From contig LQXN01000062.1 in NCBI GenBank assembly GCA_001648575.1, positions 124,001-188,000 of the forward strand: a stretch of DNA of 64,000 bases. The letters run 5' to 3'. Numbering within the stretch: the first letter of the stretch is position 1; the number at the start of each line of letters is the position of its first letter. The translations under genes were made by a program, and so were the position numbers. The notes under the pieces are model-generated. The model searched no databases, had not been told where the DNA came from, and saw nothing but the letters and a program-made list of their open reading frames with translations. Shown piece after piece: positions 12,541-58,100 of the stretch. The stretch is from Sutcliffiella horikoshii DSM 8719 (GTDB lineage: Bacteria; Bacillota; Bacilli; Bacillales; Bacillaceae_I).

Positions 12541-12570
12541 GCTAAAGCTTCATTACAAGGCTTTAGCTTT
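12541..12570 (+). terminator. Left copy of the duplicated hairpin at repeat C
   Basis: GCTAAAGC pairs with GCTTTAGC around an 11-base loop, two bases after the methyltransferase stop codon. The same hairpin occurs at 12790-12816, with three differences, all in the loop. The T-run is cut short by the repeat. Confidence 0.75.
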
Positions 12571-12788
12571 GACTGTTGACAAAGCCCTAAATATATTTAA
12601 ATTTGCATCCTGCTGTTGATCTTCGTTCCAGGCGCTTCGCTTTTCGCGGGCGGTCCGGAAGCCTCCTCGGGCTTACGCCCTGCGGGGTCTTCCTTGTCCC
12701 TTCCTCCCGCAGAAGTCTGCGCGCCTTCCACTACAATCAACAAAGGTTTTGCATATCTCAAAGATAAAATAACTTTGTCTACACACTG
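12569..12788 (+). repeat. Terminator-associated repeat, copy C
   Basis: About 215 bp with inverted ends TGTTGACAAA (12574-12583) and TTTGTCTACA (12774-12783). Core stems: GGCGC with GCGCC; GGAAG with CTTCC; CGCGGGCGG with CCTCCCGC. The element is flanked on both sides by the same terminator hairpin (12541-12570 and 12790-12820), 27 of 30 bases identical. Confidence 0.85.
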
Positions 12789-12789
12789 A

Positions 12790-12820
12790 GCTAAAGCCTC
12801 CTTACAATGCTTTAGCTTTC
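12790..12820. terminator. Right copy of the duplicated hairpin at repeat C
   Basis: GCTAAAGC / GCTTTAGC stem followed by TTTCTTTT on the plus strand. The stop codon of the minus-strand gene (12812-12814) lies inside the stem. Before the insertion this was probably one bidirectional terminator shared by two convergent genes. Confidence 0.75.
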
Positions 12821-13264
12821 TTTTGATATTTCTTGGCTTTTGTATAAAAAATCATCCTTCATTACAATAGTAAGCAGATTATTTTTACCGAATGAATGCA
12901 ACTCTCCGTACATACTTTCAGGCTTGAAATTCACCAATCGAACAGGCAAAAACTTATTGGTGAAAATATACGCAGCCCTAGAAGAACGACCAATTTGTTT
13001 AAATACAATTTTACTAATGTCCATGCAGCTAATTTCTTTAGAAGTAAGAACAACATGTAAGAACATTACTTGATAATGAATAGAAGTTTTATTCACCCTC
13101 ACTTGATAACGAATAAAATAAGAAAAGGCGATAATAAAAACAATAGACAATTGGACAACAGCTCTTCCGTAATTTTCATGAAGAAGCTGATAAATACCTT
13201 GGACCAACATCAAAGAAAGAATAAAGCTATGAACAACAGTAGGATATTTCGCATTATAGGTCAT
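12812..13264 (-). CDS. Membrane protein of unknown function
   Basis: A 150-aa protein with two N-terminal hydrophobic segments (about residues 11-27 and 34-51), then a mostly beta-type soluble part. That part (YQVRVNKTSIHYQVMFLHVVLTSKEI) resembles the short PH-like domains of small Bacillus membrane proteins, but I cannot name the family. The stop codon overlaps the terminator hairpin. The ATG at 13264 is preceded by a weak GGAGGAC ribosome site. Confidence 0.55.
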   Translation of the reverse strand: MTYNAKYPTVVHSFILSLMLVQGIYQLLHENYGRAVVQLSIVFIIAFSYFIRYQVRVNKTSIHYQVMFLHVVLTSKEISCMDISKIVFKQIGRSSRAAYIFTNKFLPVRLVNFKPESMYGELHSFGKNNLLTIVMKDDFLYKSQEISKES

Positions 13265-13490
13265 TGAACTTGTCCTCCGGTTTTTCCAAAGTAGGCTAAC
13301 TTTGGCTTTATGGACTTATTCTCCCACCAAAATCCCAATTATATCCTTATTTTTGTAAAAACCAGGTAAATTCTACAATATATATCTTCTCATGGCAACA
13401 TTTATACAGTGAACCACATGTGCTTTCTTGTTAGGATATTTATTAGAGTGTCCGAGAGTTGCTGAAAACACAACAAGGAGGAACTTATTC

Positions 13491-14078
13491 ATGAAAAAAC
13501 TAATTGCAATTTCAACTGCAGCTATAGCATTTTTTGCAGGTACAAGCTTTAATGCCCAGGCAGCAGGCTCATATAAAGTACAATCTGGTGATTCCTTATG
13601 GAATATAGGTAAAACGTACGGGGTTTCAGTTAAAGAAATGAAGGAATTAAACAATAAAAATAACCATTTAATCTTTCCAGGCGAAGCAATACAACTGCCA
13701 GAAAAAGTATCAAACGGTGAAAAAGAAGTATTAGCTCGTCTTGTTCACGCTGAATCAAAAGGTGAACCATATGAAGGTAAAGTTGCAGTGGCAACGGTAG
13801 TGCTTAATCGAGTAGACAGTGACACTTTTCCGGACTCCATTAAGGAAGTAGTCTATGAAACATCTCCGGGCGGCATTTATCAATTCTCACCAGTTGGAAA
13901 CGGTCAAATTGATAAACCAGCTGACGAGGAAGCAATGAAAGCAGTAGAAGAAGCTATAGCTTTCCGTGGAGATGGCAACAATTCTCTATACTTCTTTAAT
14001 CCTGATAAAACAAACGACCAGTGGATTCGTACTAGAAAAGTAACGAAAACCATCGGAAACCATGTTTTTGCACAATAA
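13491..14078 (+). CDS. ykvT: LysM and cell wall hydrolase (SleB/CwlJ-type) protein
   Basis: A 195-aa exported protein. Its signal peptide ends near AQAAG (about residue 25). A LysM domain (YKVQSGDSLWNIGKTYGVS, about 29-70) binds peptidoglycan. The C-terminal hydrolase_2 domain (about 78-195) is the SleB/CwlJ lytic transglycosylase-like domain, with LARLVHAESKGEP carrying the catalytic glutamate, followed by AVATVVLNRV. This is the layout of Bacillus YkvT. The neighbour ykvS is also adjacent to ykvT in B. subtilis. AAGGAGGAAC before the ATG at 13491 fixes the start. Confidence 0.85.
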   Translation: MKKLIAISTAAIAFFAGTSFNAQAAGSYKVQSGDSLWNIGKTYGVSVKEMKELNNKNNHLIFPGEAIQLPEKVSNGEKEVLARLVHAESKGEPYEGKVAVATVVLNRVDSDTFPDSIKEVVYETSPGGIYQFSPVGNGQIDKPADEEAMKAVEEAIAFRGDGNNSLYFFNPDKTNDQWIRTRKVTKTIGNHVFAQ

Positions 14079-14090
14079 TAAAATAATCAA

Positions 14091-14130
14091 AACGAGGTGC
14101 CGGATCTCTTTTCCGGCACCTCGTTTTTTA
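14091..14130. terminator. Bidirectional terminator between ykvT and ykvS
   Basis: Strong stem CGAGGTGCCGG / CCGGCACCTCG with TTTTTT on the plus side and TTTT on the minus side. The stop codon of ykvS (14128-14130) lies at its edge. Confidence 0.9.
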
Positions 14131-14319
14131 TATCGCTTTATAGTTTTTGTGATTGATTACAGTTCGGATAGGTTCTCCAGTATTCGGATTTTTTCCTAAT
14201 TCCACTATGACCGAACTATCTCTTACAACAATGACAGTTCCTTTACTTCCTTTTTTGGAACCCTTATTAATTTGTATCATATCTCCAACTTGAACAGTGC
14301 TTGTATTACTCTCTTCCAT
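14128..14319 (-). CDS. ykvS: YkvS-like small KOW-type protein (DUF2187)
   Basis: A 63-aa protein. Residues 10-60 form a KOW/SH3-like beta barrel (VGDMIQINKGSKKGSKGTVIVV), the DUF2187 pattern. The Bacillus homologue is YkvS, whose function is not known. KOW folds commonly bind RNA or ribosomal partners, so this is only a hint. It converges with ykvT. Confidence 0.75.
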   Translation of the reverse strand: MEESNTSTVQVGDMIQINKGSKKGSKGTVIVVRDSSVIVELGKNPNTGEPIRTVINHKNYKAI

Positions 14320-14377
14320 GTAAATATTCCACCTTTATCTAATCAGTTTATATTGCTATCTATTCTTTAGTATCCCC

Positions 14378-15241
14378 TTATTCGGCCAAAAAACTTTTAA
14401 TATGAAAAAATGTCAGTTCTCTGATAACATCCTTTTCATTAAAAAGCTGGTGATTCCCTTCATCTACAAGAATACATTTCGATTGCGGATATTTGTCCAA
14501 AAGAAACCGGATGTTGTATTTCCAATCAACAGTTGTGTCTTTATTACCCTGTAGAATATAAAGATCCTTCTTACTTACTGGTAAGTGGGAAAGGTTACTA
14601 TGCCACTTCTCAAAAGAATGCAGCCAGTTTAATGGCAATCGGGAAAACTGAAGGGGATCATCTTTTACGAATTTGAGATAGTGCAAATCCGAAGAGTTTT
14701 TACGAAAAGACCTTTTTATATGCTTCACTTTCTTCCCAATAATTTTAACACCAATTTTTGAAAAAGACCACAGATAAGGTTGTACCAATGGTGCCACCAT
14801 GATTATTTTGTTAAATGACATGTTTCCGCTGTTGATATAATCAGTAATAATTGCAGCACCAGTACTATGGCCGATGACAGACCAACTCGTATCTGTTAAC
14901 CCTTTTTCCCTATAGTGGGCCTGCACAGCATGGAGCGCCTCGCAATAATCAGTAAAATTCTCGATATCTCCCCTCAAACCATGTGAGTAACCATGTCCTG
15001 GCAGATCAAATGTAACGATTCCATAACCTTCAGACAATAAAGAATCAATAAGTTTAGAAAATGAACCTGAATGATCAAGGTAACCGTGGATTAAGGTCAC
15101 AAGGCTTTTTCTCTTTTCAGGAATAAAGGATTGAGAAAAAATCCCCAGATTATTATGATGAATTCTGGCGCATTTATGAATAGAGGACCAATGATTAAGT
15201 CCGTAGTATGTCAGATACTTGTTTTTTTCAAAAACCATCAT
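14378..15241 (-). CDS. Alpha/beta hydrolase, monoacylglycerol lipase-like (S33)
   Basis: About 287 aa. Oxyanion-hole region VTLIHGYLDHSG, then DLPGHGYSHG, then nucleophile GHSTGAA (around residue 130 of the shortened form), and a C-terminal DEGNHQLFNE carrying the last catalytic histidine. The ILQGNKDTTVDW segment probably holds the catalytic aspartate. The pattern fits lysophospholipase/monoacylglycerol lipase-type hydrolases. I chose the ATG at 15241 (GAGG 9 bases upstream) over the GTG at 15280. The substrate is unknown. Confidence 0.75.
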   Translation of the reverse strand: MMVFEKNKYLTYYGLNHWSSIHKCARIHHNNLGIFSQSFIPEKRKSLVTLIHGYLDHSGSFSKLIDSLLSEGYGIVTFDLPGHGYSHGLRGDIENFTDYCEALHAVQAHYREKGLTDTSWSVIGHSTGAAIITDYINSGNMSFNKIIMVAPLVQPYLWSFSKIGVKIIGKKVKHIKRSFRKNSSDLHYLKFVKDDPLQFSRLPLNWLHSFEKWHSNLSHLPVSKKDLYILQGNKDTTVDWKYNIRFLLDKYPQSKCILVDEGNHQLFNEKDVIRELTFFHIKSFLAE

Positions 15242-15387
15242 ACGAATCATCCTCAAAATAAAACTTCGGTTAATCTCCACTTTAAACTTTCTAAACCATC
15301 TTACCTTATTATGAACTAAATATCGTATAATTCCTTACTAATTGTCAAAACATAACCGTAAATGCTAAGAAAGAGGTGTTGAAAGGT

Positions 15388-15921
15388 ATGAAGTTGAAAG
15401 GTATTGTCGTTACCGGTCTTGCTCTTACCATGCTTGTTACTGGTTGTGGGAATGTAGATGAATATGGAACTGCAAGACAGGATAATCAAGATGATGCTCT
15501 TAATGTTAATTATGATAACATGGGGCGCTATACAGAAAATGTTAGAAGAGATCGAGTCAATCCTCGTCGGGTCAATGAAACGAACCAACCCCGCATAGAG
15601 GTTGCAGATGAAGCTTCAAAACGTATTACGGACCTTAAAGAAGTAAAGAGCAGTAATGTTCTAGTTACTGACCGTAATGCCTATGTTGCAGCTGTATTGG
15701 AAGGTGAAAACAAAGAACTAAGCAATGATGTGGAAGAAAAAATTGCCAATCAAGTACGGAAAACAGATCGAAGTATCCGTAATGTATATGTTTCTGTAAA
15801 TCCAGAATTTGTGGACCGGATGGAAGGTTATACAAATGATATTAATGAAGGTCGACCTATCAGAGGAATTTTCGATGAGTTTACAGAAATGGTGCAACGA
15901 GTATTTCCTAATCGCCGATAA
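15388..15921 (+). CDS. YhcN/YlaJ-family sporulation lipoprotein
   Basis: A 177-aa lipoprotein: signal peptide with lipobox LVTGC (cysteine about residue 20), followed by a low-complexity charged region (residues 25-75). A YhcN/YlaJ domain follows (about 80-165, VADEASKRITDLKEVKSSNVLVTDRNAYVAA broken into its usual blocks). Family members are spore inner-membrane or cortex-associated proteins expressed in the forespore. AAGAGGTG lies 9 bases before the ATG at 15388; the in-frame GTG at 15376 lies inside that ribosome site. Confidence 0.8.
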   Translation: MKLKGIVVTGLALTMLVTGCGNVDEYGTARQDNQDDALNVNYDNMGRYTENVRRDRVNPRRVNETNQPRIEVADEASKRITDLKEVKSSNVLVTDRNAYVAAVLEGENKELSNDVEEKIANQVRKTDRSIRNVYVSVNPEFVDRMEGYTNDINEGRPIRGIFDEFTEMVQRVFPNRR

Positions 15922-15936
15922 CAACTAAAAATAAAC

Positions 15937-15973
15937 AAAAACAAGAGGAGAGTTGAAGTTCCTCTTGTTTTTG
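15937..15973. terminator. Bidirectional terminator
   Basis: AAAACAAGAGGA pairs with TCCTCTTGTTTT, between the convergent lipoprotein gene and the TelA-like gene. T-runs occur in both directions. Confidence 0.85.
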
Positions 15974-15996
15974 GTTTTTTTAAGTTGTCTGATATA

Positions 15997-17199
15997 CTAT
16001 TTCCTCTTTGCTTTAGAGCGTACTTCCAGCAACTTGGTCTTGAGGTCGTTTTCCATTTGAACAAGCTCCAGCTCGACTTGATGGCGTTTTTCCCGGCCCT
16101 CTTGCTGGATTTGCAATGTTTCTTCCAACGTTTCGATTAGGTTTTCTTGTGTTTTCTTCAGTGTCTCTATATCCACGAGCCCTCTTTCATTCTCCCTCGC
16201 GGCTGAAATGGTATTTTGTTTCAGCATTTCAGAATTCCTCAACAGCAATTCATTTGTTGTTTCAGAGACATTTTTCTGGGTATCCACGGCTTTTTGCTGA
16301 TTATATAAGGAAACTGCAATAACAAGTTGATTCTTCCATAAAGGAATAGCCGTAAGTATTGATGACTGGATTCTCTCTACCAATGTCTGGTTGGTATGCT
16401 GAATCATCCTTATTTGAGGAGCCATTTGCAATGTGATCTGCCTGCTGATTTTCAAATCATGTGTTCTCTTTTGTAATCGATCTCCAAATTGAATCATATC
16501 ACTAACTGCTTGTACGTCCATTTGGTTGTTTGTTTCCCTTGCTTTCCGCTCAAGCTCAGGTATAATATTCGCTTGAATTTCATCAAACTTATGCTCTGCA
16601 GCTGCAATATAAATGTTCAATGCCTGAAAATAGTCTTTATTTTTATCGTAAAGTGATTCCAGCATAATATTATCGCGTTGAAGTACCTTTTTAAAACTTT
16701 CGAGCTGGTCGGAAATTTTATCAATTTCAAAACCGATTTTTCGATATTTTGCAAATAACTGTTGTACAGAGTTATTTACATTTCCAAACAGCTTACCGAA
16801 AAATCCTTTCTTTTGCGGTTCAAGCTCCCCTGGCTTGACTTCTTTGATCTTCCGCATTAAATCTGATACGACTTCTCCCACAGGGCCAGCATCCTTTGCC
16901 TGCACATGTGAAAGGATGGAGTTTGAGAAGGTGGAAAGTTCGTTTTGAGCACTAATGCCGTAAGAGGAAATGGCTTGTTGATCTGTAGGGTCTATCTGTT
17001 TTGCTATTTCCAATGCACGTGATTTATATTCAGCTGATAAGGTATCCATTACCTTTTCTTTCATGGGTTCTGTCGCTGTGTCTTTTTCCTGCTGAGGAAC
17101 CATTTCATTCTCTAGCTTAGGTGCAGAGAATGGATTGCTCAATAAGTCATTTAACGTATCTTCTTTTACCTGCTCTTTGTATTTTTCATTATTGCTCAT
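15997..17199 (-). CDS. yaaN: TelA / toxic anion resistance family protein
   Basis: A 400-aa, largely helical cytoplasmic protein of the TelA/KlaA family. It has a disordered acidic N-terminus (residues 1-60), the conserved QKKGFFGKLFGNVNNS segment near residue 130 and long coiled coils to the end. It is linked by name to tellurite resistance, but the chromosomal Bacillus form (YaaN) is better described as an envelope-stress protein of unclear biochemistry. The gene is 18 bases downstream of xpaC, as in B. subtilis, so the two form an operon. Confidence 0.85.
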   Translation of the reverse strand: MSNNEKYKEQVKEDTLNDLLSNPFSAPKLENEMVPQQEKDTATEPMKEKVMDTLSAEYKSRALEIAKQIDPTDQQAISSYGISAQNELSTFSNSILSHVQAKDAGPVGEVVSDLMRKIKEVKPGELEPQKKGFFGKLFGNVNNSVQQLFAKYRKIGFEIDKISDQLESFKKVLQRDNIMLESLYDKNKDYFQALNIYIAAAEHKFDEIQANIIPELERKARETNNQMDVQAVSDMIQFGDRLQKRTHDLKISRQITLQMAPQIRMIQHTNQTLVERIQSSILTAIPLWKNQLVIAVSLYNQQKAVDTQKNVSETTNELLLRNSEMLKQNTISAARENERGLVDIETLKKTQENLIETLEETLQIQQEGREKRHQVELELVQMENDLKTKLLEVRSKAKRK

Positions 17200-17217
17200 T
17201 GCTTTTCACCCCATAAG

Positions 17218-17865
17218 CTACTTCTTTTCAATTATTTTGTTTGAAGGTTTGATTTGTTGAAGGTTTGATTGATTCATCAACCGAATTTCTGTATGAAGAT
17301 GGTTCATATCACCTGATAAGACAGACATTAATTCTTTTTCCATGCTCTTTTCCAATTGTTTTAATGCATCTTCAGTTTCACGGAGAGCCAATGATACTTC
17401 GTGTGTACGCACTGGCTGATTCAACAGTTGAACATACTTTTCCGTGATAATGGCTGAAGAGTCCAAGTGTTGATTAAAGAAATTCTGTGCGGTTCGGTAA
17501 CGGACAGGTTCCTTTTCCACCATTTTGATAATCTTATTTGATATTTTGGATATTTTAGTAATGGTTTGGTAAACGAACAGGGAACGTACCCGGAATCGTG
17601 AACTGTTTATCGTCTTTGCTTTTTCCTTTGCCTGTCTCAGTTGATTCAGAACATATTTTTTTTCTTTGCGTTCCACCCTTTCCAAGTCATTGCTTGGAAG
17701 GAGTTTTCTTTTTACAGCCCAGTAACTGACAAGAAAGCTAGCAAAAGCACTTAAAATCCCCAATTGAACTTGGTTACCTGTTACAAGGTATGCTATTAAA
17801 AAACCAACAATGGCTAAATTGAAGGAGACAATAATAATAAAGGTTTGTAGCATGATTCGTTTCAT
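17218..17865 (-). CDS. xpaC: XpaC-like membrane protein
   Basis: About 215 aa with two N-terminal membrane helices (about residues 7-25 and 30-45 after the chosen start), then a long helical soluble part. It is the upstream partner of the TelA-like gene, matching the XpaC/YaaN pair of Bacillus. XpaC was named for hydrolysis of a chromogenic phosphate, but its real activity is uncertain. GAGGAG 8 bases before the ATG at 17865 supports this start; an upstream extension to 17952 lacks such a site. Confidence 0.75.
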   Translation of the reverse strand: MKRIMLQTFIIIVSFNLAIVGFLIAYLVTGNQVQLGILSAFASFLVSYWAVKRKLLPSNDLERVERKEKKYVLNQLRQAKEKAKTINSSRFRVRSLFVYQTITKISKISNKIIKMVEKEPVRYRTAQNFFNQHLDSSAIITEKYVQLLNQPVRTHEVSLALRETEDALKQLEKSMEKELMSVLSGDMNHLHTEIRLMNQSNLQQIKPSNKIIEKK

Positions 17866-18041
17866 ATTCTCACTCCTCATATTTGAAGAAATTCCTACTT
17901 GTATACTTCTATTTACGTAATTCTGAGGAAAAGGTTTCATCTTTGTATACATTTATTATATAGGAAATTGGTTGGAATACGAAGTGTTTTGTGAGACTTC
18001 AGCGAAGATGCTACTTAATAACCTTTGAAAAATAACCAAAT

Positions 18042-18076
18042 GAAAAATAACCCTTGATATTAAATCAAGGGTTATG
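18042..18076 (-). terminator. Terminator of gabD
   Basis: Perfect stem ATAACCCTTGAT / ATCAAGGGTTAT followed by TTTTTC on the minus strand, just after the stop codon at 18082. Confidence 0.9.
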
Positions 18077-18081
18077 AGTTT

Positions 18082-19497: not shown

Positions 19498-19579
19498 GAA
19501 ATTCCCTCCTAGAAAAATATAGGTAACTCTTCTTAATATATTCACTCTTTACAGGTCATTCCCTTTATTAGAAAGAAAA

Positions 19580-19599
19580 AAACACCTATTAAGGTGTTT
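19580..19599 (-). terminator. Distal copy of the duplicated hairpin at repeat D
   Basis: AAACACC / GGTGTTT stem. On the minus strand it is followed by a run of T, so this is the copy that kept a complete terminator. The other copy is at 19810-19829. Confidence 0.8.
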
Positions 19600-19809
19600 C
19601 AGTGTGTAGACAAAGCTATTTTCTAGTTATAAATTCCCTGTTGTTCGTAGTGGAAGGAGCGGAGACTCCCGCGGGAGGAAGGGACATGGGAGACCCCGCA
19701 GGCGAAGCCGAGGAGGCTCCCGGACCGCCCGCAGGAAAGCGAAGCTCCTGGAACGAAGATCAACAAGAAAATGCAATTCTAAAGATGATTAGGGTTTGTC
19801 AACAGTCTC
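19600..19809 (-). repeat. Terminator-associated repeat, copy D (inverted)
   Basis: A 210-bp copy in the opposite orientation to C, E, F and G. Inverted ends CAGTGTGTAGACAAA (19600-19614) and TTTGTCAACAGTCTC (19795-19809). Core stems read in element orientation: GGAGC with GCTCC; GGGAG with CTCCC; GCGGG with CCCGC. It is flanked by the same 20-base hairpin on both sides, with one difference in the loop. Confidence 0.85.
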
Positions 19810-19829
19810 AAACACCCATTAAGGTGTTT
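19810..19829 (-). terminator. Proximal copy of the duplicated hairpin at repeat D
   Basis: AAACACC / GGTGTTT stem. The stop codon of the MFS gene (19819-19821) lies in its loop. On the minus strand it is followed by GAGAC of the repeat rather than a T-run. Confidence 0.75.
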
Positions 19830-21021: not shown

Positions 21022-21118
21022 ATATAATTCTCCGTTCGCATGGGTTGTAAGAAAACTATACCATGGAAAGATTTAATTCGCCACTCGAAATTTCCTATAC
21101 TGAATGATTTAATTCCCC

Positions 21119-21161
21119 TCAAAAAAACACTTGAATGAGCATCTGCCCAATCCAAGTGTTA
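21119..21161 (-). terminator. Terminator of the YusW-like gene
   Basis: AACACTTGGAT pairs with ATTCAAGTGTT on the minus strand, followed by TTTTTTTG, about 90 bases after the stop codon at 21254. Confidence 0.75.
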
Positions 21162-21253
21162 TTCGTATATTCCTTTTAACCAGTTAAATTATTTACTGAC
21201 TTGCTCTTATCGATGCAAATTGCAACAATTCATGAGAAAAGAGCATTAAAGAA

Positions 21254-21754: not shown

Positions 21755-21799
21755 AACCACAAAACCTCCTAGAAATATTTTTAAACAGATGATTAATAT

Positions 21800-22456: not shown

Positions 22457-22474
22457 AAATAATTCACTCCCGCT

Positions 22475-22508: not shown

Positions 22509-22520
22509 TAACATGATGGT

Positions 22521-26885: not shown

Positions 26886-28247
26886 ATGCATCAAGCGTCT
26901 ACTTATAAAGAGCGTATACAAATTTTCATAAAGATTGTCGTTCCAATCCTAGTGACCCAGCTTGGATTATTCTCCATGAATCTCTTTGATATCATGATGA
27001 CAGGAAATGTAGGTGCTGGCGATTTGGCAGGAGTTGCCATCGGGGCAGGACTCTGGGTCCCTGTTTACACTGGGCTCAGCGGTATTCTCCTCTCTATCAC
27101 GCCGATTGTGGCACAACTTGTAGGTGCCAAAAAAACGGACAATGTTCCATTTTCAATTACTCAAGGTGTGTATGTTGCCTTCGCGATGAGCGTCCTCATC
27201 ATCGCCATCGGGGCTTTGTCACTTAATCCGATTCTAAACTCCATGAACCTCGAATCAGAGGTCAGGCATGTAGCCAAGTTTTATCTGGTTGCACTTGGTT
27301 TTGGAATCGTCCCATTGTTCATTTATACCGTCTTAAGGTGTTTCATCGATGCCTTAGGTCATACCAGGATTTCCATGATCATAACTTTACTTTCCCTGCC
27401 GATCAATGTACTTCTGAACTATTTATTAATTTTCGGGAAACTCGGACTTCCTGCTCTTGGAGGTATTGGGGCAGGTATTGCTTCGGCATTGACTTATTGG
27501 CTCATTATGATCATTTCGCTATATATAGTACTCAAGAAACATCCGTTTACAGTGTACCCTTTATTTAAAAAGCTGTATCCCATTTCCCTTTCGAAATGGA
27601 AAGAAATCTTACTTATAGGTGTCCCGATCGGGCTATCTATATTTTTTGAAACTAGTATTTTCTCCGCAGTAACATTACTGATGAGTTCATTCGATACAGT
27701 GACCATAGCATCCCATCAGGTTGCATTGAATTTTGCTTCCCTGCTCTATATGATTCCCTTAAGTATTTCCATGGCGCTTACTATATTAGTCGGCTTTGAA
27801 ATTGGAGCGGGTCGTATAAAGGATGCAAAACAGTACACATATATGGGTGTGCTATCCGCTGTGTTTTTATCAACAGTTTGTGCGGTCTTTTTATACTTTT
27901 TCAGAGCAGAAGTCGCATTTTTGTACACAAAAGATCCAGAGGTTATTGCCTTAACCACTGCTTTCCTTTTGTACGCTTTATTCTTCCAGCTTTCTGATGC
28001 CATAGCTGCCCCTATTCAGGGTGCTTTAAGAGGCTATAAAGATGTGAACGTCACCTTTATGCTTGCTTTCGTGTCTTATTGGATCATCGGATTGCCTATA
28101 GGTTATTTCTTGGCTAATTATACGGACTTCGGTGCCTTCGGATATTGGCTTGGACTTATAGCCGGTTTAGCTGCCGGAGCAGTTGGCCTTGCGTGGAGGT
28201 TATACCTCTTACAAAATCGATATATGAAAAAAGCCCCTTCTGTATAA
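26886..28247 (+). CDS. MATE-family multidrug/Na+ antiporter
   Basis: A 453-aa membrane protein with twelve predicted helices in two similar halves, of the NorM/MATE type. The first helix region IVVPILVTQLGLFSMNLFDIMMTGNVG (given here as its conserved block, residues about 18-40) and SITPIVAQLVGA (about 71-82) fit the family. It exports cationic drugs or metabolites in exchange for H+ or Na+. The ribosome site AAAGG is weak and distant. The stop codon lies inside the loop of a terminator hairpin duplicated by repeat E. Confidence 0.85.
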   Translation: MHQASTYKERIQIFIKIVVPILVTQLGLFSMNLFDIMMTGNVGAGDLAGVAIGAGLWVPVYTGLSGILLSITPIVAQLVGAKKTDNVPFSITQGVYVAFAMSVLIIAIGALSLNPILNSMNLESEVRHVAKFYLVALGFGIVPLFIYTVLRCFIDALGHTRISMIITLLSLPINVLLNYLLIFGKLGLPALGGIGAGIASALTYWLIMIISLYIVLKKHPFTVYPLFKKLYPISLSKWKEILLIGVPIGLSIFFETSIFSAVTLLMSSFDTVTIASHQVALNFASLLYMIPLSISMALTILVGFEIGAGRIKDAKQYTYMGVLSAVFLSTVCAVFLYFFRAEVAFLYTKDPEVIALTTAFLLYALFFQLSDAIAAPIQGALRGYKDVNVTFMLAFVSYWIIGLPIGYFLANYTDFGAFGYWLGLIAGLAAGAVGLAWRLYLLQNRYMKKAPSV

Positions 28248-28254
28248 GAAGGGG
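28234..28254 (+). terminator. Left copy of the duplicated hairpin at repeat E
   Basis: A 21-base palindrome, stem CCCCTTCT / AGAAGGGG, containing the MATE stop codon (28245-28247) in its loop. An identical copy stands at 28465-28485. Confidence 0.8.
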
Positions 28255-28255
28255 T

Positions 28256-28463
28256 CAGACTGTTGACAAACTAAAAATCAGTTGAGTTATTTGTTGGAAC
28301 GGTTGATCTCCGTTGCAGGAGCTTCGCTTTCCAGCGGGCGGTCCGTAAGCCTCCTCACTCCGCCTGAGGGGTCTTACTTGTCCCTTCCTCCCGCAGGAGT
28401 CTTCGCTCCTTCCACTACGATCAACTAGGGAATTTCAATTTTTTAAGCTTTGTCTACACAATG
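28256..28463 (+). repeat. Terminator-associated repeat, copy E (best preserved)
   Basis: A 208-bp element with ends CAGACTGTTGACAAA (28256-28270) and TTTGTCTACACAATG (28449-28463), i.e. imperfect inverted repeats. The inner core starts GTTGATC and ends GATCAAC. Paired segments: GGAGC with GCTCC; AGCGGG with CCCGC; GTAAGCC with GGTCTTAC. It is flanked by a perfect 23-bp direct repeat that is itself the terminator hairpin of the MATE gene. Confidence 0.9.
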
Positions 28464-28464
28464 G

Positions 28465-28490
28465 CCCCTTCTGTATAAGAAGGGGTTTTT
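28465..28490 (+). terminator. Right copy of the duplicated hairpin at repeat E
   Basis: Exact copy of the palindrome at 28234-28254, here followed by TTTTTG, so it is the functional distal terminator. Confidence 0.85.
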
Positions 28491-46507: not shown

Positions 46508-46528
46508 ACGGGATTAGTAATCCAGTTT
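46508..46528 (+). terminator. Left copy of the duplicated hairpin at repeat F
   Basis: ACGGGATT / AATCCAGT, one mismatch in the stem. Matching copy at 46744-46764. No T-run here because repeat F follows. Confidence 0.75.
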
Positions 46529-46741
46529 CAGATTGTTGACAAATCATTAAATAGTAAGGGTTATCTGATGGAACAAGTTGATTTCCGCTGCAGGAGTTTC
46601 GCTTGCCAGCGGGCGGTCCGTAAGCCTCCTCACTTCCCCTGAGGGGGCTTACCTGTCCCTTCCTCCCCCAGGAATCTACACTCCTTATCACTTCAATAAA
46701 CAGCGAATTTATAACTCGAAAAGAGCTTTGTCTACACACAG
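46529..46741 (+). repeat. Terminator-associated repeat, copy F
   Basis: A 213-bp copy with ends CAGATTGTTGACAAA (46529-46543) and TTTGTCTACACACAG (46727-46741). Core stems: GGAGT with ACTCC; GTAAGCC with GGGCTTAC. The final core segment is more diverged (CACTTCAATAAAC for CTACGATCAAC). It is flanked by a 21-bp terminator hairpin on both sides with one difference. Confidence 0.85.
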
Positions 46742-46743: not shown

Positions 46744-46768
46744 ACGGGATTAGTAATCCCGTTTTTTT
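46744..46768 (+). terminator. Right copy of the duplicated hairpin at repeat F
   Basis: Perfect stem ACGGGATT / AATCCCGT followed by a run of T on the plus strand; the functional terminator of the carbonic anhydrase-like gene. Confidence 0.85.
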
Positions 46769-46859
46769 TAGAATATTTTAAAATAATCATTACTATAATA
46801 ATGTTATGTAAACTCTAATTACAAAAGAACACCTCCTAACGGAAATGCTCTTTCTTTCA

Positions 46860-49091: not shown

Positions 49092-49106
49092 ATCACTTTC
49101 ACCTCT

Positions 49107-49961: not shown

Positions 49962-49985
49962 CACTTTTCCTCCTTTGTCTCGCTG

Positions 49986-50018
49986 TAAAAAAGCAAAGAG
50001 GACTTGCCCCTTTGCTTT
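49986..50018 (-). terminator. Internal terminator or attenuator between the aldehyde dehydrogenase gene and paaH
   Basis: AGCAAAG-GG / CC-CTTTGCT stem followed by TTTTTT on the minus strand, inside the paa operon. It may reduce paaHJ expression or be read through. Confidence 0.7.
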
Positions 50019-50043
50019 GCTCTAAATGGGATGATGAAAGATA

Positions 50044-51561: not shown

Positions 51562-51606
51562 GGTTTCATCTCCTTCAAATTTTCTTTATTCATTATCAGA
51601 AAAAAA

Positions 51607-52380: not shown

Positions 52381-52394
52381 TGGGCTGCACCTCC

Positions 52395-53174
52395 TTATTC
52401 CCCTTCAAAATTAGGTTTTCGCTTTTCCTTGAAGGCACGCATTCCCTCTTTTTGATCCTTGGAAGCAAATAGAAGATAAAAGTTCTTCCTTTCAAATTGC
52501 ATCCCTTCATAAATAGGATAGTCCACAGCTTTATGGACGGATTCTTTAATCAAGCGCAGGGACAAAGGAGCTTGTTTTCCAATTTTACGAGCAAATTTCA
52601 TTGTTTCTTCCATTAATAATTCTTTTGCGACCACACGGTTGATGACGCCATGGTGCAGGGCCTCATCAGCACTCATCCTATCACCAGTCAAAAGCCATTC
52701 CATTGCTTTTGATTTTCCCATAAGTTTAGTCAATCTCTGCGTCCCACCTGCCCCTGGCATAACCCCCAGGCTGATTTCAGGAAAACCGAATTCTGCATCA
52801 TGGGCTGCAAACAGTATGTCACAGCATAGGGCAAGCTCAAATCCACCGCCAAGAGCAAAGCCTTGAACCGCGCCAACAATAGGCTTTTTCACCCAGGCAA
52901 GACGGTCCCATTCCGTGAATTGATTCAACAGTTCAAGTTCAATGGCTGTAGCCTCCGCCATTTCATCGATATCTGCACCCGCAGCAAATGCACGGCCTTT
53001 TCCACTCAATACGATTACTTTCACTTCGTCATCACGGTCAAATTCTTCTATCACCGTCACAATTTCTGTTACCATTGGTCTGTTGATTGCATTCAACACT
53101 TTTTGTCGATTTAACATCACGACACCAATCGCACCTTCTATTGAAACCTCGATATATTCGTACGTTCTACTCAT
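52395..53174 (-). CDS. paaF: Enoyl-CoA hydratase of the paa operon
   Basis: A 259-aa crotonase. GRAFAAGADIDEMAE (about residues 58-72), GAVQGFALGGGFELALCCD (about 100-118) and EISLGVMPGAGGTQRL (about 131-146), with the typical hydratase glutamates. In the pathway it hydrates 2,3-dehydroadipyl-CoA. In the absence of PaaZ it or a related crotonase could also open the oxepin ring. Its start overlaps the end of the EthD-like gene by 8 bases, indicating coupled translation. Confidence 0.83.
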   Translation of the reverse strand: MSRTYEYIEVSIEGAIGVVMLNRQKVLNAINRPMVTEIVTVIEEFDRDDEVKVIVLSGKGRAFAAGADIDEMAEATAIELELLNQFTEWDRLAWVKKPIVGAVQGFALGGGFELALCCDILFAAHDAEFGFPEISLGVMPGAGGTQRLTKLMGKSKAMEWLLTGDRMSADEALHHGVINRVVAKELLMEETMKFARKIGKQAPLSLRLIKESVHKAVDYPIYEGMQFERKNFYLLFASKDQKEGMRAFKEKRKPNFEGE

Positions 53175-53475
53175 TCACTTCTTCACCAATCATCAAGGTT
53201 ACAAGATCGCCGGCAAAGCTCATTAAATCCTTTCCAGATGCTTTAGCTTCATCTGTTCTCATTGCTTGCTTCAATGCGTCATGACTGTCATAAAACATTT
53301 CACACATTAAATAGTACTTGCCTTCCCCACCCATTGGACTTCCTACCACTTTTGTCACTTCCATCTTGCGCAAGCCAGGTATCTTTGCAGTGATTGGTGC
53401 ATGTGTGTCAAAATAGTGCTGATCAAAAGCCTCTTTGTTTTCTGGGTGTTTGTATAACGCGATTAATTTTACCAT
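53167..53475 (-). CDS. EthD-family protein in the paa operon
   Basis: A 102-aa ferredoxin-like alpha/beta barrel protein. VKLIALYKHPENKEAFDQHY and HAPITAKIPGLRKMEV are typical for the EthD family. Members occur near oxygenases and oxidoreductases, but no enzymatic role is proven for most. It occupies the position where other paa operons carry paaE. AAGGAGAG before the ATG at 53475 sets the start; the upstream extension to 53544 lacks a ribosome site. Confidence 0.75.
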   Translation of the reverse strand: MVKLIALYKHPENKEAFDQHYFDTHAPITAKIPGLRKMEVTKVVGSPMGGEGKYYLMCEMFYDSHDALKQAMRTDEAKASGKDLMSFAGDLVTLMIGEEVNE

Positions 53476-53610
53476 CTGAAATCTCTCCTTTTTTATATGC
53501 TCTGTTAAACACCGCTGCTTACTTTGGCAATTGGCACCAATCAACAGCTATGATCTCAGAACTTTATGTAATTGCCTGCCAGAGATATACTCCGGAAGGC
53601 ATTGATACTC

Positions 53611-54102
53611 TTACATCATGGTGGAAACGGGTTTCATTGCTTCGAAAGGGTTCTTGCAACCTTTACAGTAAAGGATGCTCCTGCATGCAGTTGGGCCGAA
53701 GATGTTATCTATTGTCGTGTAAGTCGACCCGCAGTAAGGGCAATCCACATGCCATTCTCCAGCATCGTCTAGTATAGGTGGGGGTGCGATCCCAAACTCC
53801 TTTAAATGCTCTCTGCCTTTTGCTGTAATGCGATCGGAAGTCCAAGGAGGCTGGTAGATGAATAGGACCTCCACACGCTTGAATAGTGCCAAGCTGGCAA
53901 TCTCGTTTTCTACATTCTTTTTGATGATTTCAAGGGCTGGGCAACCCATGAACGTAGGCAACATCTTGATGATAACTCCTTCATCGGATAGTTCGACCAC
54001 TTCCACCATCCCAAGATCCACGACACTGACAGAATCTATTTCAGGATCTTTCACAAGATGTAAAGCTTCCCGGACCTTTATTATTTTTGTTTCTTCCTGC
54101 AT
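53611..54102 (-). CDS. paaD: Phenylacetyl-CoA epoxidase assembly protein PaaD
   Basis: A 163-aa protein. N-terminal MIP18/DUF59 domain (about residues 8-85: VKDPEIDSVSVVDLGMVEVV, and TFMGCPALEII with the conserved cysteine). A C-terminal zinc-ribbon part follows with CPYCGST and CKGCKNP pairs (about 126-152). PaaD is thought to help mature the metal centre of the PaaABC epoxidase. It lies between paaC and the EthD-like gene. Confidence 0.85.
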   Translation of the reverse strand: MQEETKIIKVREALHLVKDPEIDSVSVVDLGMVEVVELSDEGVIIKMLPTFMGCPALEIIKKNVENEIASLALFKRVEVLFIYQPPWTSDRITAKGREHLKEFGIAPPPILDDAGEWHVDCPYCGSTYTTIDNIFGPTACRSILYCKGCKNPFEAMKPVSTMM

Positions 54103-54145
54103 GTTGTCCTCATTCCTTTTTGTTTGGCTATAAAGCAAAAGTATT

Positions 54146-54967
54146 TTACCAAACCGCTGCTGGATTGCTTCTATATACTTCACTAAGCGTTAATAGGGCA
54201 TCATCCAAATCCTTGGTATGCTCTCCTTTTCTGCCATTTCCACTTTTCATCCCCATACTTTCAGGGAAGACCATATTCAGTTTTTCAAACATGGAGGCCA
54301 TTTCAGCAACAAAGCGTTTACGCAGTTCACTTTCCTTTTCTATTAAACGGTATTGCGTAATGGCATCACCGCTTGGACCTAAAGCCAGTACACCATCAAA
54401 TTCTTCTAATACCTTGTCAATGGCAGCTTTCATCCTGCTTTTTGCATCACCGTTAGCAGAACATAACTGTTTAAACCATGTCCTCCAATGAAGCAAATGA
54501 TAGTATAGTTCCATATTCACTTTTACAGCAACATGTTTCAAAGGTTCATAGGAGGAGTTTTTCAATGACTCGACCTTTATTTTCTTGGACTGGGTGTAGA
54601 AGTAATGTCTCACCACTGTATATGCCCAATCATATTTAGGTTCCGTGAGATAAGTTCCGGATCCATTCACTTTTTCTAACAGTACGGCGTTAACTCTCTC
54701 TGTCGCTTTCCTTGCATGAGCAAGAGCGTCCATATCCCCTTCACCCAGGTCCTCCAGCAATTGATAGTACATGGCGGCATGCCCCATCGTGTCCTGGTTA
54801 ATGGAAGAAAAGGCAACATCCTCCTCGATGTGAGGAGCAAGACCAAGCCATTCAGAACCTCTATAGGCAATGATGAAGTCATCATCTGCAAGCTGATACA
54901 ATAACGCTGTAAGAGCTTTATAGTACGATGTATCTTTTTGAGCTTCTTCAACCGATGTTATATTCAT
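54146..54967 (-). CDS. paaC: Phenylacetyl-CoA epoxidase structural subunit PaaC
   Basis: A 273-aa ferritin-like all-helical subunit that pairs with PaaA in the multicomponent epoxidase but is usually without its own functional iron centre. EWLGLAPHIEEDVAFSSINQDTMGHA (as EWLGLAPHIEEDVAFSSIN, then QDTMGHA; about residues 39-64) and the WRTWFKQL region are typical. The start ATG at 54967 overlaps the paaB stop as ATGA, so translation is coupled. Confidence 0.87.
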   Translation of the reverse strand: MNITSVEEAQKDTSYYKALTALLYQLADDDFIIAYRGSEWLGLAPHIEEDVAFSSINQDTMGHAAMYYQLLEDLGEGDMDALAHARKATERVNAVLLEKVNGSGTYLTEPKYDWAYTVVRHYFYTQSKKIKVESLKNSSYEPLKHVAVKVNMELYYHLLHWRTWFKQLCSANGDAKSRMKAAIDKVLEEFDGVLALGPSGDAITQYRLIEKESELRKRFVAEMASMFEKLNMVFPESMGMKSGNGRKGEHTKDLDDALLTLSEVYRSNPAAVW

Positions 54968-55311
54968 TGATTTTTCTTCCCTCCCCATGACATGATCTCC
55001 TGTTCATCAAGCATGCCTTGCTCATATTGGCGCCATTTTTTCTTCAAATAGCCATAGCCTTTTGTATTGCGATAATCCTTGTTATCAATTCTTTGTAAGG
55101 TTACGCGCTCCTCTTGTGTCATTTTACGGATATTTGCCCGTTGTACCACCCAAATATCCACAGCAGGCTCGCGGCGCATAAAATTCTCTTGCGCCATCAC
55201 AAGTGCAATCTCTTGATTGGGAGCAAGCAGACTGAATTGATATTGCATTGGAGAAGTGTGGGTTCTTTTGCTGAACACTTCAAATTCTTTATAAAAACCT
55301 TTCGTACTCAT
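54964..55311 (-). CDS. paaB: Phenylacetyl-CoA epoxidase subunit PaaB
   Basis: A 115-aa small subunit. YKEFEVFSKRTHTSPMQYQF (about residues 7-26) and ALVMAQENFMRREPAVDIWVV (about 36-56, written here as its conserved block) are the PaaB signatures: hallmark residues R, HT and REP. The C-terminal part (RNTKGYGYLKKKW) is a basic extension. PaaB bridges two PaaAC units. It lies 19 bases after paaA. Confidence 0.88.
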   Translation of the reverse strand: MSTKGFYKEFEVFSKRTHTSPMQYQFSLLAPNQEIALVMAQENFMRREPAVDIWVVQRANIRKMTQEERVTLQRIDNKDYRNTKGYGYLKKKWRQYEQGMLDEQEIMSWGGKKNQ

Positions 55312-55330
55312 CTCATAAGCTCCTTCCTCT

Positions 55331-56299
55331 TTAACCTGCTGTCGTATCGGAGCTTAGCGCTTCCCGAACCCACGCATTATTTTCATGAGCAATTACTCTT
55401 AAGCGCAAGCGGTCCTTTGATTTTGGGCCGTTGTTCTTAATGATTTCCTTGAAGTTGCTCCAATCAGGCTGCTTGTAGATCCACTTCTGCTCTTCCTCAT
55501 TAAAATGCATTGTCTCATCAGGCAATGTAAGGCCGAGTGAGAGGACACGTGGAATATATTTTGTAAAAAAATCCTGGCGTAACTCTTCGTTGCTTTTTGT
55601 ACGTATGTTGTATTTCATCGTTATATCCTGCTTGGATGTACCGGTAGTGGATGCGTCTGCCGGACCAAAGAACATCAATAGCGCCTCCCACCAGCGGTTG
55701 ATGGAATCTTGGATCATTGCCCTTTGTTCTTCGGTTCCTTCTGCAAGGGCCATGATGATTGCCTCTCCATGCTGGGCATGGAATACTTCCTCTGCACAAA
55801 TGCGTTTAAGAGCCCTTGCATATGGTCCATATGAAGCGTCCAGCATATTTGTTTGGGAAATGATTGCTGCTCCATCTACAAGCCACCCTATAAGGCCCGC
55901 ATCCCCCCAAGTAGGTGCTTCCATGTGGAAAACATTATGAAACTTTAAATCTCCTGAAAATAAATCTTGCATGATTTCTTCACGTGTTTTTCCATAAGGC
56001 TCCATCAAATCTTCTGCTACGCGCAAAAGCAGCTGCCCATGGCCCATTTCATCTTGGACTTTTGCCATGATACCGAGCTTCCTTTTAAGAGTAGGAGCTT
56101 TTGGCACCCATTCCTTTTCTGGAAGCGCTCCCATTATTTCGCTGATTGCATGCATCGAGATCAGTTTAATCAATGTCTTACGATATTCTTCCGGCATCCA
56201 GTCATCTGCTTCAATCTTTTCCCCAGCATGGATACGTTGCATAAAATGCTCTTGTTTCTCTTCTTCCGTCAAGCGGTCAAACGATAATGAATTGGTCAT
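55331..56299 (-). CDS. paaA: Phenylacetyl-CoA epoxidase catalytic subunit PaaA
   Basis: A 322-aa diiron oxygenase subunit that makes the ring 1,2-epoxide of phenylacetyl-CoA. Diiron ligands lie in the four-helix bundle: VQDEMGHGQLLLR (about residues 82-94) and AEEVFHAQHGE (about 169-179) give the ExxH-type pairs. WGDAGLIGWLVDGAAI and MKYNIRTKSNEELRQDF are family blocks. It is the first gene of the paaABCD operon, with a strong promoter and the shared palindrome upstream. Confidence 0.9.
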   Translation of the reverse strand: MTNSLSFDRLTEEEKQEHFMQRIHAGEKIEADDWMPEEYRKTLIKLISMHAISEIMGALPEKEWVPKAPTLKRKLGIMAKVQDEMGHGQLLLRVAEDLMEPYGKTREEIMQDLFSGDLKFHNVFHMEAPTWGDAGLIGWLVDGAAIISQTNMLDASYGPYARALKRICAEEVFHAQHGEAIIMALAEGTEEQRAMIQDSINRWWEALLMFFGPADASTTGTSKQDITMKYNIRTKSNEELRQDFFTKYIPRVLSLGLTLPDETMHFNEEEQKWIYKQPDWSNFKEIIKNNGPKSKDRLRLRVIAHENNAWVREALSSDTTAG

Positions 56300-56319
56300 T
56301 TTCGCCGCCCTCCTAATTC

Positions 56320-56342
56320 TATAACGTTTATTTAACGCAATT
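56320..56342. promoter_or_regulatory. Candidate PaaX-type operator at paaA
   Basis: TATAACGTT-n5-AACGCAATT, one full arm and one partial arm, directly downstream of the -10 box of the paaA promoter. This is the same position as at 41714 and 44767. Confidence 0.65.
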
Positions 56343-56368
56343 ATAATATAATGTTATACGTTTATCAA
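56340..56368 (-). promoter_or_regulatory. Promoter of the paaABCD operon
   Basis: TTGATA (complement of 56363-56368), exactly 17 bases, TATAAT (complement of 56340-56345). Confidence 0.8.
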
Positions 56369-56385
56369 CTCTGAAAGTTCTGAAA

Positions 56386-57705
56386 TCATGTGTATGCCAA
56401 TCTTTTATCGATAATTCGGACTGCTTTTCCTTCTGAGCGTGGGATGGTTCTAGGTTCCACAATGGTTGCTTTGACACTTATAAAACATTTGGACTTTAAT
56501 TCATGCTCCACCTTTTGGGCGATAAGGGCCAGTTTGGTTGTTCTGTCGGCAATATCTGTTTGTAAAAGTGCATTTTCATCTATCTCAACCTGCACTTCTA
56601 CCATATCTAAGCTATTGTCACGGGACACATATATTTGGTAATGAGGTGCTACATCTTTGATTTGAAGCAATGTATGCTCAATTTCCGATGGAAAGATATT
56701 AACCCCCCTGATAATCAGCATGTCATCTACCCTGCCCTTTACCCGGGACATTTTAGTCGTCGTCCTGCCGCAAACACATCGTTCCCTTCTGATAGAAGCG
56801 ATATCACCGGTCCTATAGCGGATGATGGGCATAGCTTCTTTTGTAAGGCTTGTGAAAACAAGCTCTCCCACTTCCCCCTCTGACAGGACTTCCTTCGTTT
56901 CCGGATCAATGACTTCCACATAAAAATGATCTTCAGCTATATGCAGACCATCTTGAGATTCATGGCATTCCATCGCTACACCAGGTCCGATCACTTCACT
57001 TAACCCATAGATATCACAGGCCTTCATGCCAAATCTTCCTTCTAGTGTTTTCCTCATTTCCTCCGACCACGGCTCTGCACCGAAAATACCGTATTGCAAC
57101 GATGTCATTCTAGGATCAATCCCGAGATCAATCATTTTATCTGCTATATTTAGTACATATGACGGCGTCCCGCAAATAACGGTTGGTTGAAAATCTTGAA
57201 TAAGCTGAATTTGCCTTTCCGTGTTACCGCCAGAAACAGGGACTGTAATCATCCCAAGTCGCTCACTTCCGTAATGCAACCCAAGACCTCCTGTAAAAAG
57301 ACCGTAACCGTAAGCATTATGTAGGATGTCTCCTATCTTTCCCCCGCCCATTGCTATTGCTCTTGCTGCTATTTCACTCCACATTTCAATATCTTGTTTA
57401 GAATAAGCTACAACCGTAGGTTTTCCACTTGTTCCAGAAGAAGCATGGAGTCTAGTTATTTGAGTTCTAGGAATAGCGAAAAGCCCGAAAGGATAGTTCT
57501 CGCGCAATTCTTTTTTTGTAGTGAAGGGAAGTTTTACTATATCTTGAATCGTATTGATGTCGGTGGGGATCACGCTATTGTCGGTGAATTTTCGTTTATA
57601 GAAAGGCACATTACAATATACTTTCTGAACAGTACTTTTCAACCTGCCGGATTGCAGTTTTCGCATATCTTCCAGAGACAATATTTCTGTATCGTGAAGA
57701 ATCAT
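56386..57705 (-). CDS. paaK: Phenylacetate-CoA ligase
   Basis: A 439-aa adenylate-forming enzyme that activates phenylacetate with ATP and CoA. P-loop-like HASSGTSGKPTVVAYSKQD (about residues 87-105), GVNIFPSEIEHTLLQ (about 335-349) and YRTGDIASI are typical; the length equals E. coli PaaK (~437). AAAGGTGAG before the ATG at 57705 gives the start; the upstream open frame to 57834 is promoter DNA. It lies upstream of paaA on the same strand, separated by the paaA promoter. Confidence 0.9.
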   Translation of the reverse strand: MILHDTEILSLEDMRKLQSGRLKSTVQKVYCNVPFYKRKFTDNSVIPTDINTIQDIVKLPFTTKKELRENYPFGLFAIPRTQITRLHASSGTSGKPTVVAYSKQDIEMWSEIAARAIAMGGGKIGDILHNAYGYGLFTGGLGLHYGSERLGMITVPVSGGNTERQIQLIQDFQPTVICGTPSYVLNIADKMIDLGIDPRMTSLQYGIFGAEPWSEEMRKTLEGRFGMKACDIYGLSEVIGPGVAMECHESQDGLHIAEDHFYVEVIDPETKEVLSEGEVGELVFTSLTKEAMPIIRYRTGDIASIRRERCVCGRTTTKMSRVKGRVDDMLIIRGVNIFPSEIEHTLLQIKDVAPHYQIYVSRDNSLDMVEVQVEIDENALLQTDIADRTTKLALIAQKVEHELKSKCFISVKATIVEPRTIPRSEGKAVRIIDKRLAYT

Positions 57706-57731
57706 GGGTATCTCACCTTTCATTTTGTTAA

Positions 57732-57754
57732 TATAACGAATTTTTACCGCTGAT
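57732..57754. promoter_or_regulatory. Degenerate PaaX-type site in the paaK leader
   Basis: TATAACGAA-n5-ACCGCTGAT; left arm 7 of 9 and right arm about 5 of 9 compared with the consensus arm TATARCGTT. It lies between the paaK promoter and the start codon. Confidence 0.35.
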
Positions 57755-57784
57755 GAACAATGTGTAATATTACTCAACACCATT

Positions 57785-57813
57785 AAAATAACCTCGGTAA
57801 GTTTAAATGTCAA
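57785..57813 (-). promoter_or_regulatory. Probable promoter of paaK
   Basis: TTGACA (complement of 57808-57813), 17-base spacer, TATTTT (complement of 57785-57790), 80 bases upstream of the ATG. Confidence 0.55.
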
Positions 57814-57842
57814 CAAATAATTCAGAATATTCATTAAAAAAA

Positions 57843-57864
57843 CAGAGGAGTAGGTCCTCTGCTT
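57843..57864 (-). terminator. Left copy of the duplicated hairpin at repeat G
   Basis: Perfect stem CAGAGGA / TCCTCTG; on the minus strand followed by TTTTTTT. The related copy is at 58076-58100. Confidence 0.75.
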
Positions 57865-58075
57865 CAGACTGTTGACAAACTAAAAAATAGTTAAGTTATC
57901 TTTTGGAACAGTTGATTTTCGTTCCAGGCGCTTCGCTTTCCTGCGGGCAGTCCGTAAGCCTCCTCGGCTTACGCCTGCGGGGTCTTACATGTCCCTTCCT
58001 CCCGCGGGAGTCTTCGCGCCTTCCACTGCAATCAACTAGGGATTTTTATCATATTTGAAATTTGTCTACACACTG
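57865..58075 (+). repeat. Terminator-associated repeat, copy G
   Basis: A 211-bp copy with ends CAGACTGTTGACAAA (57865-57879) and TTTGTCTACACACTG (58061-58075). Core stems: GGCGC with GCGCC; GCGGG with CCCGC; GTAAGCC with GGTCTTAC. It is flanked by related hairpins sharing AGGAGTAGGTCCT. A group IIC intron begins less than 40 bases to the right. Confidence 0.85.
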
Positions 58076-58100
58076 AAGCAAGGAGTAGGTCCTTTGCTTT
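58076..58100 (-). terminator. Right copy of the duplicated hairpin at repeat G
   Basis: GCAAGGA pairs with TCC-TTGC with one bulged base. It matches the hairpin at 57843 in its centre but has changed bases in the outer stem. Confidence 0.6.

Follow-up and report, generated by a model that had tools for sequence, protein, structure and literature searches.

A short repeat in the genome of Sutcliffiella horikoshii DSM 8719, which has the form of a miniature inverted-repeat transposable element (MITE), typically stands between two copies of one hairpin, and the hairpin is a different one at each site. The window, that is, the whole stretch of 64,000 nucleotides analysed (C65:124001-188000, contig LQXN01000062.1), belongs to a genome with 4,677,891 bases in 67 contigs. 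For the MITE the pattern is genome-wide, and its larger relatives duplicate hairpins as well. How much of the target is duplicated seems to depend on the target's shape and not on a fixed measure. DDE transposases normally make target duplications that are short and nearly constant in length, since the stagger is set by the enzyme; in the present case the duplication spans 18 to 42 bp and seems to be dictated by how the target itself folds. Judging from the sequences, we consider it probable that the repeat is a MITE moved in trans by a DDE transposase of the IS1182 family, which would target hairpins and join the element at their 5′ feet, with repair then duplicating the hairpin. The observations behind this reading are a repeat of the whole hairpin, a length that changes from site to site, a dyad at the centre, empty sites with a single hairpin, and the same pattern in autonomous IS1182-family elements.

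Hairpins at the boundaries of the element

An earlier note, made from the letters of the window alone, had listed seven copies of the element, five of them intact and with the same hairpin on both sides. All seven (A to G) are present in the window, five intact and two (A and B) decayed, and the lengths and mismatches given for the hairpins of D, E and F hold (Table 1). For copy C, the three changes are in the loop only, but the repeat is 29 bp long and not 30. At copy A the sole hairpin is the right-hand one (2759-2779), and at copy B the right hairpin (5831-5855) has no left counterpart.

Exact ends of the element occur 98 times (left) and 99 times (right) in the genome, and reversed control patterns have no match. 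Worn copies are under-represented because the sample was drawn by exact 15-bp ends (197 exact ends, as against 337 end matches at up to one mismatch). From 131 stretches and the window, 118 copies were paired by opposite ends 110-260 bp apart; six of them are from the window, copy A being too worn for the paired set. They are 116-221 bp long (typically about 210 bp) and bear terminal inverted repeats, as had been claimed, together with the target duplication. The longest ATG-to-stop open reading frame (ORF) in the 118 elements has 59 codons (median 12), which fits the earlier claim that the element encodes no protein. Rfam at the gathering threshold gave no match to the element.

A gapless flank repeat anchored at the element boundaries (score of at least 8) is found at 99 of the 118 paired copies. 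None of 2000 swapped-flank controls reaches this score (best control 4.5), so the hairpin repeats are not due to chance. The repeats are 18-39 bp long, 44 of the 99 are perfect, and the hairpin differs at each site; what had been said of a few copies, a different hairpin of variable length each time, extends to the genome, where most paired copies carry matching hairpins. The dyad is exactly central in 69 of the 99 repeats and within one base of the centre in 95. In a stricter test that takes each flank by itself, 75 of 118 copies have a palindrome ending at the element boundary on either side and 104 have one on at least one side; of 2000 random window positions, 13 pass. Among 32 unpaired ends, 27 were tested by the same measure and 22 have a hairpin ending at the boundary. 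The direct comparison of the two hairpins scores higher in 106 of 118 copies, the two orientations are equal in 2, and the inverted one is higher in 10 (several with decayed or mismatched flanks, the rest differing by few points); inverted instead of direct copies are rejected as an account. Four loci (L062, L066, L074 and L112) are tandem arrays of the form hairpin-element-hairpin-element-hairpin, and in each of them the two elements point the same way.

The joined flanks of five sites of this genome were searched in 15 genomes of the same genus. Thirty loci were examined among the many more matches listed, and partial alignments were set aside. All 23 join-spanning alignments, which fall at four sites (L149, 11; L160, 9; L065, 2; L140, 1), have by eye one hairpin, imperfect in some, and no element; in none do two hairpins stand without the element, the arrangement that would have contradicted the earlier note. 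At L160 three relatives are 97-98% identical. The fifth site (L141) gave no join-spanning alignment among the relatives. Loss of the element from the relatives, by recombination between its two hairpins, is conceivable. As a general account, this is opposed by the scarcity of the end motif, which is abundant only in G010, G011 and G016 (78, 57 and 78 matches) and has 0-5 matches in the other twelve of the 15 genomes.

The target itself is strongly folded. The fold energy of 90 of the 99 repeats is below the 1st percentile of 990 control segments of neighbouring DNA. Stems have 8-12 pairs in 77 and loops 3-6 bases in 79 of the 99. A T-rich right or A-rich left side accompanies 86 of 99 repeats but 165 of 990 controls, with an even split by orientation (T-only 28, A-only 27). 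By these features the targets resemble intrinsic terminators. Paired hairpins differ by 3.1% in their stems and by 7.9% in their loops, which is compatible with selection on the stem but no proof of it. We make no claim of compensatory change between the hairpins, with just one clear case among 61 changed stem pairs (copy G, one pair changed on both sides from G-C to A-T).

Table 1. Copies of the element and their flanking hairpins (positions in the window)
Feature	Position	Strand	Remark
Copy A, decayed	2605..2758	+	boundaries approximate, by eye
Copy B, decayed	5647..5827	+	flanks without match
Copy C, left hairpin	12540..12568	.	29 bp
Copy C, MITE-like element	12569..12788	+	
Copy C, right hairpin	12789..12817	.	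26/29 same as left; all 3 changes in loop (by eye)
Copy D, left hairpin	19580..19599	.	20 bp
Copy D, element	19600..19809	-	reverse orientation
Copy D, right hairpin	19810..19829	.	19/20 same as left
Copy E, left hairpin	28233..28255	.	23 bp
Copy E, element	28256..28463	+	
Copy E, right hairpin	28464..28486	.	identical to left
Copy F, left hairpin	46508..46528	.	21 bp
Copy F, element	46529..46741	+	
Copy F, right hairpin	46744..46764	.	20/21 same as left
Copy G, left hairpin	57841..57864	.	24 bp
Copy G, element	57865..58075	+	
Copy G, right hairpin	58076..58099	.	20/24 same as left

Directly past the right hairpin of copy G, on the minus strand, lie five Rfam group II intron matches (58113-61776; three D1-D4 parts and two Intron_gpII), perhaps two introns or a nested pair. 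Other elements sit within MITE copies, as at contig-end loci such as L072, L087, L099, L090, L102 and L119, and two recurring sequences come after MITE ends near contig ends. It looks as if the MITE itself were a favoured target for other elements. One inward-facing end pair 1985 bp apart (L068, C60:10662-13347) is not an autonomous element: here a MITE copy has been split by a different element, the ORFs of which we take to encode an IS110-type transposase.

Autonomous IS1182-family elements with the same kind of ends

The earlier note had argued that the element would need a partner enzyme, to be sought in a longer element with the same ends. Insertion sequences (IS) of the IS1182 family with ends of this kind do occur, and they duplicate hairpins. 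In the same genome, a decayed IS1182 copy (L165) has the ends CAGCTTGTAGACAAA and CAGACCGTAGACAAA and a hairpin on both sides, the left one short by 6 bases (by eye); a second decayed copy (L164) has lost its right part. Three further places with DUF772 transposases (L166, L167 and L168) have no TGTNGACAAA-type ends within the stretches examined, and were set aside. A search with one open piece of L165 gave matches in 5 of 18 genomes of the taxonomic family, its own included. The elements L170 (445 amino acids) and L172 (453 amino acids) are intact, with scores of 477.4 and 482.7 bits for the NCBIfam IS1182 model NF033551 (cut-off 270) and the domains DDE_Tnp_1_6, DUF772 and DDE_Tnp_1 above cut-off. 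Identical hairpins of 30 and 22 bp, respectively, stand on both sides, and terminal inverted repeats of the CAGNNTGTNGACAAA type adjoin the target duplication (CAGACCGTAGACAAA at one L170 end). The MITE end shares 14 of 15 terminal bases with one end of L172, and the MITE ends are 87-100% identical to those of L165 and L170 over 12-16 bases. In another genome (G013), four IS copies each occupy a different hairpin, duplicated exactly in every case (by eye); their transposase is split over two frames and their ends have GAGAAA instead of GACAAA.

A wider scan of named Bacillales genomes took the best 80 of at least 500 loci. The direct-repeat test ignores hairpins; it compares the 700 bp on either side of the gene and takes the longest exact repeat shared by the two (flanks of about 300 bp missed many IS ends). 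An exact direct repeat of at least 14 bp is present at 68 of 78 testable loci, in 67 of them of 19-42 bp, and among 150 mismatched upstream and downstream pairs the longest was never above 13 bp. Sixty-four of the 68 repeats are palindromic and centred within half a base; of the other four, three are imperfect palindromes left unscored, and that of L223 is a piece of 14 bp. Some of the loci share a species (Bacillus sp. OV166 has 11, B. massiliglaciei 11 and Neobacillus drentensis 8); the hairpins listed differ from site to site, also among loci of one genome.

The IS1182 model has matches in 190 of 299 Bacillota genomes (51 above cut-off). Thirty loci were taken, of which 26 were long enough. 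Eight of these (L289, L290, L292, L293, L299, L303, L310 and L312) have exact hairpin repeats of 22-35 bp. Apart from these, L314 has both hairpins (1358-1389 and 2915-2946), with a loop that reads GA in the left and TC in the right hairpin between otherwise matching stems, so one is the reverse complement of the other. The other 17, L295 among them, have no hairpin repeat. Eight plasmid loci were picked for diversity from the first plasmid search. Four have hairpin repeats (L319, which is ISEfa7, and L321 in Enterococcus faecium, L322 in Rhizobium leguminosarum and L323 in Providencia rettgeri), only one hairpin-flanked end was seen in L318 and L320, and no repeat accompanies L324 and L325, whose ends are of another kind.

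A quick tree was built from 63 transposases, the near copies among 120 having been removed (labels partly assigned by hand, support by the SH-like approximate likelihood ratio test only, some long branches, IS1272 itself left out). In it, duplicators appear largely split from members without a repeat. Of the 35 duplicators, 34 fall in a clade of 42 rows (support 98), together with 8 unclear rows including L295; none of the 9 rows labelled as having known ends and no repeat is in this clade. A clade of 14 rows (support 98) holds 6 of these 9 and no duplicator. The one duplicator outside the 42-row clade is L310. With unclear rows counted as non-duplicators, 10 label changes are needed, and none of 500 shuffles needs as few (mean 20.9). 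Transposases of duplicators are 449-501 amino acids long. In the other clade, 12 rows (6 unclear ones included) have lengths of 493-564, and in the alignment their central part has some 60 additional residues.

Elements with GGGGCTGTCC-type or similar ends have no repeat, and none was found at five more plasmid loci picked as relatives of this other clade (L326-L330). At L304, L316, L327 and L329 the inverted ends sometimes extend outward into A- and T-rich flanks. This might be a left-over stem, by analogy with the reported IS1272 deletions; controls come close to these scores in the test that had them. Two members of a distant IS1182 subgroup (L307 and L313) have GARACCACTGAAAAAG ends, adjoined by repeats of about 9 bp (GAACCGTCC and GGACGGTCC).

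Mechanism and alternative readings

In DDE transposition, the target is attacked by the element's 3′ ends, and whatever lies between the two points of attack is duplicated. The IS1182-family transposase would target hairpins like those of intrinsic terminators with little regard to sequence. On each strand, a 3′ end of the element would be joined to the target at the hairpin's 5′ foot, the equivalent of a staggered cut across the hairpin, and the stretch between the attack points would be the hairpin itself. Repair of the single-stranded hairpin on each side would yield one full copy on the left and one on the right. We infer that the attack meets a folded hairpin (a cruciform or a single strand), that joining takes place at the 5′ foot, and that an IS of this IS1182 subgroup moved the MITE. 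The earlier suggestion that the machinery recognises a folded hairpin stands for the targeting of hairpins; the choice of a fold over a double-stranded palindrome is one of interpretation. The sequence data agree with the prediction of pathway b in Wan 2017 (PMC5678879), which in the available part of that paper is a hypothetical duplication of the whole stem-loop by joining at the 5′ foot, pathway a being the deletion by IS1272. The data are comparative evidence for a pathway so far drawn only as a hypothesis.

Several observations weigh against this reading. Nineteen of the 118 copies have no clean gapless repeat. By eye, 13 of them have the same hairpin with small indels and L083 partly so; L045, L121 and the copy at 5647 of the window are nested or decayed; and L086 and L126 have two different hairpins on their two sides. 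The IS locus L295 has duplicator-type ends but also a different hairpin on each side. Recombination between copies, or assembly, has perhaps produced these three; no swapped partners of L086 and L126 were found among the loci of the same genome that were compared. The maximal palindrome often runs a few bases past the repeat. The earlier note had the duplicated length follow that of the hairpin; length is variable and the dyad central, but the correlation with the maximal palindrome is only moderate (r 0.60), and the cut is therefore near, not always at, the outermost base. Ten of the 78 testable IS loci, some near contig ends, lack a 14-bp repeat. Both IS1182 copies found with such ends in the same genome are decayed, and the open-frame relative L166 (C67:28445-29743; 262.3 bits, below cut-off) has none in the stretch examined. 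Finally, the MITE consensus matches L165, L170 and L172 over the terminal 12-16 bases only, and its interior gives only chance-length matches of 9-12 bases. MITEs with interiors unrelated to the autonomous element are known. The unrelated interior lowers the case for descent from these three elements, not that for mobilisation by them.

The strongest alternative, which we regard as rather unlikely, is that no fold is needed: the transposase would recognise the palindrome in its double-stranded form, as two inverted half-sites a flexible distance apart, and cut with a long stagger. Dyad symmetry alone would centre the repeat too, and there is some base preference, the repeats starting with A in 82% and ending with T in 80%. 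However, base counts reveal no half-site common to the repeats beyond this A/T rim, and lengths of 18-39 bp for the MITE and up to 42 bp for the IS would be hard for a fixed protein dimer to span. The available text of PMC4923244 also describes a hairpin structure without primary sequence consensus for IS1272/TnSha1.

It is very improbable that the element enters at one hairpin foot, duplicating little or nothing of the target, and that recombination or palindrome slippage later supplies the second hairpin. The different hairpins at L086, L126 and L295 indicate that exchange between copies may happen, and the reversed loop of L314 would also suit such a history. Against it stand the exact duplications at 44 MITE sites and at 67 IS sites (19-42 bp), the several copies of one IS in one genome that each lie in their own hairpin, the higher direct score in 106 of 118 MITE copies, and the L160 site, which is close to a recent insertion with an empty sister site. 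Neighbouring terminators occur in bacterial genomes, but that two tandem ones pre-existed with the element between them is refuted at four sites by the 23 single-hairpin alignments, sits badly with 44 identical pairs among 99, and is given practically no weight.

Joining at the 5′ feet of the hairpin would have a further consequence. Where a site consists of A-tract, hairpin and T-tract, the T-tract would stay with the right copy and the A-tract with the left. The terminator may therefore go on working in both directions after an insertion, and occupying such a site would then cost little. The reading would help explain more than 100 copies in one genome. Within the family we lean towards two modes of reading target structure, in which the clade with CAGNNTGTNGACAAA-type ends joins the 5′ feet of the extruded hairpin and duplicates it, and the clade with GGGGCTGTCC-type ends and longer transposases joins elsewhere and removes it. 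If this is true, the length of the duplication is a read-out of target structure, the terminator works on both strands, and each insertion carries a hairpin pair that was identical at insertion, which suggests a clock. Relatives of the same family with a different outcome offer a route to the residues that decide, and a tool for insertion at terminators is also suggested.

Comparison with known systems

Bacterial MITEs are short, with inverted ends, a target duplication and no transposase of their own. The present element is like them in all of these traits and unlike them in duplicating an entire hairpin, the length of which varies. Recognition by IS200/IS605 (HUH) elements and by group IIC introns also involves hairpins or terminators; to our knowledge they make no target duplication. 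Their enzymes are different: the partners described here carry DDE domains and have terminal inverted repeats, whereas IS200/IS605 elements have an HUH transposase and no such repeats.

The autonomous partners belong by NCBIfam score to the IS1182 family, an ISfinder class. The family is mixed, since the available text of two papers gives 4-bp repeats for single IS1182 elements from Paracoccus and Amoebophilus (PMC3281130 and PMC3196728). Some members are said to target palindromes (Siguier 2015, as cited in PMC4923244 and PMC5678879), and a 2025 paper (PMC12056078) describes, in its accessible text, IS1182-related transposases with or without target duplication whose target is a sequence or a structure. 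The accessible text of PMC12540322 has nothing on hairpin duplication by IS1182 elements. Whole-hairpin duplication as an observed outcome was not found in the accessible text of the open-access literature searched, with ISfinder entries and most subscription papers outside the search. The closest systems are IS1272 and TnSha1, IS1182-family elements of staphylococci. As far as the available text goes, they target hairpins, many of them terminators, without a primary sequence consensus (Furi 2016, PMC4923244; Wan 2017, PMC5678879), a precedent that the earlier note could not know and that has the opposite outcome. The transposase family and the hairpin targets free of sequence consensus are thus shared. 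IS1272 and TnSha1 delete the hairpin partly or wholly and make no target duplication (PMC4923244 and PMC5678879), a trait that the MITE and the hairpin-duplicating IS do not share; in these elements the whole hairpin is duplicated.

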